DNA of 64,000 nucleotides, from contig JALSPK010000194.1 of the NCBI GenBank assembly GCA_026986005.1, forward strand, positions 1 through 64,000. Reading direction: 5' to 3'. Both the position numbers and the translations under genes were made by a program. Positions 11,225 to 14,635 of the stretch are shown one piece after another. How positions within the stretch are numbered: position 1 is the stretch's first letter; each line of letters starts with the position of its first letter. Under the pieces are notes generated by a model. It did not search any database. It had not been told where the DNA came from and was given only the letters and a program-made list of their open reading frames with translations. This DNA is from Saprospiraceae bacterium (GTDB lineage Bacteria; Bacteroidota; Bacteroidia; Chitinophagales; Saprospiraceae).

Positions 11225-11237
11225 AAGTGATTTTTTT

Positions 11238-11642
11238 TCAGAAAAGTTTATTAAAAAGTCCTTTTTTCTTTTTAACCTTTGGTATATTGCTTAAATCTTC
11301 TCCTATCAAGATTTGGTATATCCTACCCCACCCAAGGAAGCCTCCGATATTGCGATCATCTATAAATATATCAGCTTTAAGCTTACGTGGGGCATCAGGA
11401 CAATATTCTTCCTCTACATAATTTTTATTAACAGCATAAAATTCGACACCATTTTTTTTACAAAACTCAACAGCTTCTTCCAGCCTTTTACCTGTCCTGT
11501 ATGTCCATAATACTATACGATGCCCATCTTCTTGTATTTTTTTTATAGTATCAAATGCAAACATCATAGGTTTTCCAATATCAGGATACCTATTTTCAAC
11601 AATAGTACCATCAAAATCTATAGCTATAAGTTTACTTTCCAT
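11238..11642 (-). CDS. HAD-superfamily hydrolase, BT0820-like
   Basis: A 134-residue minimal HAD phosphatase. Motif I is IAIDFDGTIV (residues 6-15), with the nucleophile Asp and the acid/base Asp two residues later. A TYR/Lys region carries motif II/III, and IFIDDRNIGG (about residues 103-112) is motif IV with paired acidic residues for Mg2+. The size matches small cap-less HAD proteins of the BT0820 type known in Bacteroidetes, whose substrates are sugar or small-molecule phosphates. A basic tail KVKKKKGLFNKLF ends the protein. The TACGAAGG array lies immediately upstream, so the gene's promoter must lie in or beyond the array. Confidence 0.85.
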   Translation of the reverse strand: MESKLIAIDFDGTIVENRYPDIGKPMMFAFDTIKKIQEDGHRIVLWTYRTGKRLEEAVEFCKKNGVEFYAVNKNYVEEEYCPDAPRKLKADIFIDDRNIGGFLGWGRIYQILIGEDLSNIPKVKKKKGLFNKLF

Positions 11643-11658
11643 TTTCTATTTTATTTAA

Positions 11659-12250
11659 CGTGGTGTTACGATGGGTACGAGGTGTACGAAGGGTACGAGG
11701 TGTTACGATGGGTACGAGGTGTTACGAGGTGTACGAGGTGTTACGAAGCAAGTACTTTACTTTATTTTTTTAACCAACCTCTATTCATTCGCAACAATTC
11801 GTAACAATTCGTAACAATTCGCAACCTTCGTAATCCTCCTCGTACCCTTCGTAACCTTCGTACCCATCGCAACAATTCGCAACCTACGTAACCTTCGCAA
11901 CCTTCGTAACAAACGCACCCTTCGTACCCTTCGTACCCTTCGCAACATTCGTAACAATTCGTACCCTTCGTACCCTTCGTAACAATCGCACCCTTCGTAA
12001 CCTTCGTAACAATTCGTAACAATTCGTACCCTTCGTAACAAACGCACCCTTCGCACCCTTCGTAACAATCGCACCCTTCGCACCCTTCGTAACAATTCGT
12101 ACCCTTCGTAACCTTCGTAACCTTCGTAACCTTCGTAACCTTCGTACCCTTCGTAACAATCGCACCCTTCGCACCCTTCGTAACAATTCGTACCCTTCGT
12201 AACCTTCGTACCCTTCGTACCCTTCGTAACCTTCGCAACAGTTCACAATT
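11659..12250. repeat. array of 9-10 bp TACGAAGG-type units in two opposed arms
   Basis: The whole intergenic stretch between the wzc-like and HAD genes is built from short degenerate units. The left arm (11659-11747) has about 9 units reading TACGAGG, TACGAAGG or TACGATGG on the plus strand. The right arm (about 11795-12240) has roughly 45-50 units reading CCTTCGTA, CCTTCGCA or CAATTCGTA on plus, so it is inverted relative to the left arm. Unit length alternates between 9 and 10 bp. The arms are separated by about 45 bp including a T-run. Units contain no stop codon in any minus-strand frame, so long fake reading frames of LRR, VTK or YEG triplets appear. No transposase is adjacent. I do not recognise the family. 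Confidence 0.85.
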
Positions 12251-12253
12251 CAA

Positions 12254-14635
12254 CTAAAAAACCTTCCACCACTTCTTTTTCGCTTGTCCATATCCATAAC
12301 CGTATCCATAACCATATCCATATCCGTAACCATATCCTTTTTTAATATCTGTACCATTTAATAATATTCCCATATTCGGCAGTCTATTATCTTTGTATAA
12401 TGACTCAGGTACATTTAGCATTCGTTTATCTAAATAATCAGCCTTTGTAACAAATATTGTCATATCCGCATATTCACTTAGCAGCAGAGTATCAGTAACC
12501 ATTCCGGTAGGAGCTGTATCAACAATTATATAATCGTATTGAAATCCTATTTCCTGAAATAATTGTTTTACACTATCTCTCATCAATATTTCAGCAGGGT
12601 TTGGAGGGATATCTCCTGAAGGAAGTACATACATATTTGGTATTTCCTTAAGCCTAATAATCGCATCATTCAAATCATAATCAGTATCTATCAAATAATT
12701 TGTCACTCCTTTATCTCCTTTTATGCCTAAGTATTGTATAACTTTTGGAACTCTTAGATCCATTCCCACTAAAAGAACTTTTTTACCGGAAATCGCAAGA
12801 GATGCTGCAAGATTAATAGCAACAAATGTTTTGCCCTCCTTGTTAATTGTGGATGTCACCAAAACGGTTTTTGCCTTCTCTTTATCCCTTTTTAACATAA
12901 ACCCAATATTAGTCCTTAGCAGCCTAAAAGCCTCTGATACATTTGTGTTTTTTTCAAGAGCCACCAAATGTTTAGCTGATTTGACTACTGGAATTGAACC
13001 TATAAAAGGGACAGATATTTTTTCCAAATCTTTTTTAGTATGAACTTTCAAATCCAACAAATCCTTTATATATAATGATAGAACCGGAAATAACAAACCT
13101 AATAAAAGACCTATTAGATATATCATTTTCCTTTTTGGACTAATAGGTGATCCGGAAGCAAAAGCGGGATCCAGTATTTTGGAATTTGATAGAGTTACAG
13201 CTTTAGCAATTGCTGATTCTTCACGTTTCTGTAAAAGGTAAAGATAGAGATTTTCAATTATTTGCCTTCTTCGTTCGATAACCAAGAACTTCCTTTCTTG
13301 TTTAGGTATTGCTTTAATTCTGGATTTATATATATCTGCATCTTTATTCAAGTCTGAAATTGTTATTTCCAAAGAATTTTTCATATTTGCCAAACTCGCT
13401 TCAAGATTTTTTCTCAGATCATCAATCTGTTCATTAAGATTGACATAAACAGGATTCTTTTCAGTTGATGACTTTAAAGTTTTATTCCTCTCTAGCACTA
13501 ATTTGTTAAAAGTGTTGATCGAACTTTCTACAGATGCAGAAGAAATACCAAGATTCTCAGGTATTAAATTTGAGTTATCCTGATGACTTTCCAAATACTC
13601 TATTATAAAATCTACCAATCTAAGCTGAGTGTTTATTTCACTTAATTTTTTACCTGATTCCGCCATGTTATTAAGAAAGATATTGGATTCGGAAGCGATA
13701 TCAGTTAGACTGTTTGAACTCTTGAAATGTTCCACATTTCTATCCAATTTATCCAATTCTTCTTTGATTATAATGAGTCTGTCATTTATAAACTTAAGTG
13801 TGTTCCTAGATACTTTATTTTTATCCTCTATCGCATCCAATCTATGCTCATCCAATAGAGTATTTAATATATCAGCAGCTCTTTGTCCATCAGAATCATT
13901 GAGACTAAGATTCAATACTTTTGACAATTGGCTTGCTCTTTCTATATTTATCCTGTTTTTCAAGCTTTTTACCATAGAGGGTATAGAACTAATCACAATT
14001 TTAATTTCCCTATCGACAAATCCTTCAATTCGCTTATTTGGGATGAAGACTACATCTCCAAAGGACAACTTAACTCTATCTCCAAATCCGGCCTTGACTA
14101 CTACGGAGTCTTTTTTATTTAACAGTTCAAATGATGATTCCGACTTTACCTTCATTCTAAACATAGTATCTACCTTATAAAACAGGGAATCACTAATAAA
14201 ATAATCCATTTTAACCGGAGAATTTTTATACATATCTTCTTCTCTGAGATTCAAGTATTTTCTAAGAGTTCCAAGATTCTTATAAGTGATATTAAGCTTT
14301 AGTTTTTTAATAACTCCTTCAAGTAAGACTGTAGATTTTAAAATATATATGTGATTTTCAGAATTATCCCCAAGCTTAGGTACTACACCCAAATCCTGAA
14401 AAGCTGACATTTCAGAACCAATCCCATCGGCATCCTTATTCTTTATGAGAACAGAGGCTGTTACATTGTATATAGGCGTTGCATATCTCAAATACAAAAA
14501 TGCGCCAAACAAAAAGGCTAATACGCTCAATATGAACCATGGCCAATAATGAAAATACTTTTCAAGCAGTTCTCTAATATTAATCTCTTCTCCCGAATTT
14601 TCACCAAGATGTTCTCTATTTATATCAAATTCCAT
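12254..14635 (-). CDS. Wzc-like polysaccharide co-polymerase and BY-type tyrosine kinase
   Basis: 793 residues. An N-terminal Wzz chain-length domain has a first membrane segment around residues 33-52 and a long periplasmic coiled-coil part. A second membrane segment follows (about residues 500-520, YLIGLLLGLLFPVLSLYI). The C-terminal cytoplasmic bacterial tyrosine kinase has Walker A NKEGKT (about 600), Walker A' VLLVGMDLRVP and Walker B YIIVDTAP (about 701). The tail is a run of Gly-Tyr pairs (about 764-781), the cluster expected to be autophosphorylated. It controls polymerisation and export of capsule or exopolysaccharide together with the Wza-like lipoprotein encoded 51 bp upstream. The Gly-Tyr run is encoded by imperfect hexamer repeats, so its length may vary by slippage. 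Confidence 0.93.
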   Translation of the reverse strand: MEFDINREHLGENSGEEINIRELLEKYFHYWPWFILSVLAFLFGAFLYLRYATPIYNVTASVLIKNKDADGIGSEMSAFQDLGVVPKLGDNSENHIYILKSTVLLEGVIKKLKLNITYKNLGTLRKYLNLREEDMYKNSPVKMDYFISDSLFYKVDTMFRMKVKSESSFELLNKKDSVVVKAGFGDRVKLSFGDVVFIPNKRIEGFVDREIKIVISSIPSMVKSLKNRINIERASQLSKVLNLSLNDSDGQRAADILNTLLDEHRLDAIEDKNKVSRNTLKFINDRLIIIKEELDKLDRNVEHFKSSNSLTDIASESNIFLNNMAESGKKLSEINTQLRLVDFIIEYLESHQDNSNLIPENLGISSASVESSINTFNKLVLERNKTLKSSTEKNPVYVNLNEQIDDLRKNLEASLANMKNSLEITISDLNKDADIYKSRIKAIPKQERKFLVIERRRQIIENLYLYLLQKREESAIAKAVTLSNSKILDPAFASGSPISPKRKMIYLIGLLLGLLFPVLSLYIKDLLDLKVHTKKDLEKISVPFIGSIPVVKSAKHLVALEKNTNVSEAFRLLRTNIGFMLKRDKEKAKTVLVTSTINKEGKTFVAINLAASLAISGKKVLLVGMDLRVPKVIQYLGIKGDKGVTNYLIDTDYDLNDAIIRLKEIPNMYVLPSGDIPPNPAEILMRDSVKQLFQEIGFQYDYIIVDTAPTGMVTDTLLLSEYADMTIFVTKADYLDKRMLNVPESLYKDNRLPNMGILLNGTDIKKGYGYGYGYGYGYGYGYGQAKKKWWKVF

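Follow-up and report, generated by a model that had tools for sequence, protein, structure and literature searches.

A block of about 58 short repeats fills the gap between a wzc-like gene and a HAD-type phosphatase gene in the capsule region of a Saprospiraceae bacterium, with most units facing one way and the rest the other way, and the block begins directly behind a stop codon. It is best read as an ORF-less ("solo") relative of the selfish elements of the IVS/S23 type, in which inverted arms of short tandem repeats often bracket a small gene for an S23/four-helix-bundle protein (PF05635/TIGR02436), and which are placed directly behind a stop codon or at an intervening-sequence (IVS) site in 23S rRNA. 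These elements are widespread but barely studied, and the array may therefore help to explain many puzzling repeat blocks in bacteria. This reading is favored with moderate confidence.

The array lies in a window of 64,000 nucleotides, the whole stretch of DNA that was analyzed. The wzc-like gene (12254-14635, minus strand; Wzz, GNVR and AAA_31 domains) and the gene of the BT0820-family HAD-type phosphatase (11238-11642, minus strand; NCBIfam NF046079) are co-oriented. On the transcript strand, the wzc stop codon TAG (12254-12256) is followed after 16 nt by the first clear unit of the right arm (11789-12244, minus strand), which consists of about 48 units of the types CGAAGGKTR and CGAATTGTTR (CGAAGGGTA, CGAAGGTTA, CGAAGGGTG and the 10-bp variant CGAATTGTTA) and is G-rich on the mRNA strand of wzc. 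An AT-rich spacer of 42 nt without an ORF (11747-11788), which would form the loop side of a hairpin, separates it from the left, antisense arm (11658-11746, plus strand). The left arm comprises 9-10 units, CGAGGTGTTA and CGATGGGTA as read on the plus strand, and ends 15 nt before the HAD start codon. The gap between HAD and the next gene (11225-11237) is bare and measures 13 nt. Tandem repeat analysis with TRF detected both arms, with periods of 9, 19 and 37 and scores of up to 150 for the left arm and periods of 9 and 73 and scores of up to 476 for the right arm, and the unit counts were obtained by splitting the sequence at the CGA core. They derive from a metagenome assembly and may be wrong. 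In the predicted fold, 77 of 89 nucleotides of the left arm pair with the right arm, and the whole gap folds better than all 20 dinucleotide shuffles (z-scores of -7.2 and -5.0 in two runs); however, any pair of sense and antisense arrays would do so. The two arms carry different unit variants, and their longest perfect Watson-Crick match is 16 nt, so they expanded separately. A fine-tuned stem can be rejected, since arrays from other loci pair with the left arm as well as its own right arm does.

The observation made in the first-pass annotation, an inverted two-arm array of 9-10 bp units, is thus confirmed, although some details had to be corrected. Units of 9 and 10 bp had been described as alternating, but they are mixed. 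The absence of stop codons on the minus strand holds only for the right arm, which has 0, 1 and 0 stops per frame compared to about 31 over all frames in mononucleotide shuffles, whereas the other strand is not stop-free, the left arm has four minus-strand stops and the whole interval has 3, 4 and 4 per frame. Translation of the array is not supported: units of 8, 9 and 10 bp constantly shift the frame, and the open frame has no Pfam match. The array is also not confined to this site. A single array without conservation had been named beforehand as the outcome that would speak for random local slippage, and the opposite was found.

Searches with relaxed patterns revealed about ten arrays in this 3.8-Mb MAG, five of which are located at contig starts. 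More were found in two congeners, here called G077 and G167, while no array matched the pattern in two further congeners, G225 and G266. The flanks of 24 arrays with a visible upstream gene were inspected: the G-rich strand is the coding strand of this gene in all 24 cases, and in 20 of them the array starts within 16 nt of the stop codon. Most of the arrays in this genome that could be read possess only a sense arm. The upstream genes include wzc, nuoB, nuoD, genes for a NiFe hydrogenase large subunit, an acetyl-CoA-synthetase-like protein and a sugar kinase, lepA and galE, with lepA, galE and nuoB named from their translations. As most arrays lie at housekeeping genes, nothing supports the earlier suggestion of a recombination site for capsule variation, and a capsule phase-variation site or a translated repeat peptide is very unlikely, despite the position beside wzc and the nearly stop-free sense right arm. 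The units keep a CGA core every 8-10 nt in three species, while the spacing and the neighboring letters differ between species; however, the profile was anchored on CGA, and only the flanks are informative. The gap between nuoB and nuoC carries arrays in this genome and in G077 but is a plain spacer of 34 nt in G167. In G077, two near-identical copies of nuoB are followed by different arrays (contigs C47 and C339), perhaps because two strains are combined in one MAG. A NusG-family gene, scanned in this genome only, lies beside CGA arrays in this genome, G077 and G167, next to a sortilin-like gene (extracted stretches L042:267-890, L231:2308-2874 and L237:2259-2822).

Comparison of the orthologous gap revealed occupied and empty sites. 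HAD orthologs could be located in all four congeners. In G225 and G266, whose HAD proteins show 66-67% identity, wzc and HAD are separated by only 20 and 25 nt, and no array is present. In G167 (80% identity), the gap is filled by arrays of a different motif: a sense arm of the GTTCAAG/GTTTCAT type starts directly after the wzc stop codon and is followed by its complement and the HAD start codon. G077 (80% identity) carries the same type, which is cut by the contig start. G077 also has longer repeats before the HAD gene, made of 27-bp units of GAGTAACGAAGTGTGCCGAGGGATGCT (L229:1580-2235 and L248:1-126). In both G077 and G167, the next gap contains, behind the HAD stop codon, a sense arm and an antisense arm of that motif and then an S23 gene (PF05635); in G077, the stop codon of S23 is followed by another sense arm, antisense arm and the next gene. 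In the genome studied here, G225 and G266, the gap after HAD is short and bare. Thus, the layout recurs while the motif has been replaced, and arms and motif switch together, as they would if whole elements insert.

CGA-type arrays also flank S23 genes in G167, G077 and G266, and the S23 protein of G167 matches TIGR02436 and the solved structures 2gsc (XCC0516 of Xanthomonas campestris) and 2rld. To determine whether the link is general, 30 S23 loci from other Saprospiraceae genera, which were the best-scoring matches and not a random sample, were compared with 30 cold-shock-gene loci. Tandem arrays with a TRF score of at least 40 were present at 26 of 30 S23 loci, compared to 7 of 30 control loci. 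6-mers repeated at least three times upstream of S23, with the reverse complement repeated at least three times downstream, were found at 18 of 30 loci; exchanging the downstream flanks between loci gave a mean of 1.0 (maximum of 6 in 2000 permutations), and the controls gave 0 of 30. Each locus tends to have its own motif (e.g., TTAGAGG, AGGTGTC, TCAGGAG). Where the upstream gene is co-oriented, a repeated 6-mer overlaps its stop codon in 13 of 20 cases, compared to 2 of 29 downstream of cold-shock genes, whereas distance alone, within 15 nt, is less discriminating (18 of 20 against 14 of 29).

Outside of the Saprospiraceae, S23 genes on 12 plasmids were inspected, ten of which are cyanobacterial, one from Gemmatirosa and one from Azospirillum. 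Seven of the 12 show repeated inverted 6-mers around S23 (permuted mean of 0.4, maximum of 3), and others visibly have shorter arms. S23 genes with heptamer arms sit between cas6 and cas4 on a Pseudanabaena plasmid and between ribonucleotide reductase genes on a Nostoc edaphicum plasmid. The plasmid of Azospirillum lipoferum 4B (NC_016586.1, 12898-16245) contains an unannotated S23 ORF bracketed by heptamer arms of the GGACAGA type in an apparent 23S rRNA intervening sequence, which was identified by eye and not by an rRNA model. A scan of 84,980 species for the 9-bp pattern, which lacked a control scan and does not allow the breadth across phyla to be judged, mostly gave scattered hits in many phyla. 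Among the array loci found in this way, only one contained an S23 gene, an Acidobacteria contig with CGA-type inverted arms, GGTGCGATG before S23 and CGCACCAAT at its end. The scan also detected an unrelated Planctomycetota MAG (MGR_bin356) with many intergenic arrays of the GGGTACGAA type, often as inverted pairs and some close behind stop codons, but no S23 gene was found in the stretches examined. Within the Saprospiraceae, the pattern is rare outside of the genus (7 genomes, compared to 3 with the reversed control pattern).

The closest described system is the 23S rRNA intervening sequence with an S23 ORF, for instance, that of Coxiella burnetii, which has a long stem formed by inverted repeats and tandem GACAGAT heptamers in the 5' arm before S23, and is excised by RNase III (PMC4990558); the S23 ORF is present in part of the known IVSs. 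Literature searches for S23 linked to short tandem arrays found only this study, although they covered open-access papers only and a prior description elsewhere cannot be excluded. The array studied here shares the inverted arms, which are predicted to form a long stem, and the sporadic presence at a site that is empty in relatives, and an S23 gene is found between such arrays in congeners. However, it lies between protein genes and not within 23S rRNA (helix 9, 25 or 45), no Rfam match was found in the window, its arms are far longer arrays, and cleavage by RNase III can only be proposed by analogy. Furthermore, no S23 gene was found in the array or elsewhere in this MAG; it may be missing because arrays break assemblies. 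The lack of S23, the many arrays with only a sense arm and a stem that is not specific to its own locus speak against the favored reading.

The analysis itself establishes the inverted tandem arms, their anchoring behind stop codons and their orientation, the occupied and empty orthologous sites, the replacement of the motif at the same gap in sister species, and the statistical linkage of inverted arrays to S23 genes in the clade and beyond. By contrast, the spread as a selfish element, the multiplication of units by slippage or unequal exchange, the formation of a long double-stranded hairpin in the wzc-HAD transcript in vivo, and its cleavage by RNase III (as established for 23S rRNA IVSs), which would leave two separate messages, are inferred, while transcription of the array, mobility and any role of S23 are hypothetical. 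In this view, the element persists because a position between a stop codon and the next start codon would render insertion and cleavage nearly neutral. The interpretations offered in the first-pass annotation are partly supported by these data: a hairpin-forming transcript and a buffer between transcripts fit best, since the order of stop codon, sense arm, antisense arm and start codon is also seen in the orthologous gap and in other gaps of congeners, while the protein- or nucleoid-binding array that was also suggested remains a guess. A slippage-made satellite is probably right for how the units multiply, given the locus-specific variants and the 37- and 73-bp higher-order repeats, but does not explain dispersal, strand bias, stop-codon anchoring or the link to S23 genes.

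Alternatively, the array could be a passive satellite, in which a seed 9-mer spread and grew by slippage and unequal exchange, and position and orientation only reflect what selection tolerates: G-rich after stop codons and C-rich before start codons, because a long C-rich untranslated stretch inside an operon would hypothetically invite Rho termination. S23 elements would then merely have the same kind of repeats. The locus- and species-specific unit variants, the higher-order repeats, the C-poor sense strand and the many arrays with a sense arm only and no S23 gene nearby are in line with this possibility; however, it does not explain why the layout recurs with a different motif at the same orthologous gap, nor why S23 genes carry motif-matched inverted arms in several phyla, and it is considered possible but doubtful.

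Similar geometries have been described for other repeats. For the GGGAATC repeats of Xanthomonas, which are short G-rich tandem repeats between genes, Rehm et al. (2015) reported that the coding strand is found close behind stop codons and the non-coding strand close before start codons, with frequent inverted pairs and conserved positions (PMC4692102), and the orientation of the G-rich strand in the arrays studied here agrees with this. The Xanthomonas repeats and the Nostoc GGGGAYT repeats are, however, heptamers (GGGNATC/GGGGAYT) with G-tracts that form G-quadruplexes and a preference for four units, whereas the array studied here has dozens of CGA units of 8-10 bp and no three-tetrad G-quadruplex motif; a few such motifs are present in other arrays of the genome. 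TAACTGA repeats of Beggiatoaceae, Cyanobacteria and some Bacteroidetes (MacGregor 2015, PMC4679880) are likewise dispersed short intergenic tandem repeats with a fixed orientation to genes, but they have another motif, occur mostly just before start codons and in two to six copies in Beggiatoaceae, and no inverted arms or S23 link were reported; in the array studied here, the main arm lies behind a stop codon. Neither main text mentions S23. The cyanobacterial STRR heptamers (reportedly described by Mazel et al. 1990; cited in PMC4692102) are also short tandem intergenic repeats, and S23 genes on Nostoc and Calothrix plasmids have arms of this general kind. A regulatory G-quadruplex or a repeat bound by an RNA-binding protein, as proposed for the Xanthomonas and Nostoc heptamers and for TAACTGA in Beggiatoa, could tune expression or termination between wzc and HAD. 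The shared geometry and the CGA core every 8-10 nt in three species would fit such a role, but it is unlikely, since the three-tetrad motif is absent, the upstream genes have no common function, and sister species replaced the motif altogether, which a sequence-specific binder would not allow.

The S23/four-helix-bundle family is abundant, with genes in 126 of 150 Saprospiraceae genomes, and has no known function, and short tandem arrays in bacteria have been catalogued for decades without a common cause. The findings tie the two together and to the 23S rRNA intervening sequence; they predict where such elements sit, namely behind stop codons, what their RNA does (hairpin formation and cleavage by RNase III) and which protein is the candidate, and may also explain why some assemblies break between genes of an operon. 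It is tempting to speculate that many scattered families of intergenic short tandem repeats, including the one described here, cyanobacterial STRRs, Xanthomonas GGGAATC and perhaps TAACTGA, are arms or solo forms of one class of selfish RNA-hairpin element that settles behind stop codons, with the S23 protein as its possibly trans-acting protein and the 23S rRNA IVS as one special landing site. The evidence does not exclude this, but it is less likely than not. In-frame 6-bp repeats (12287-12337) encode the YGYGYG tail of Wzc, which is also seen in the wzc genes of G167, G225 and G266.
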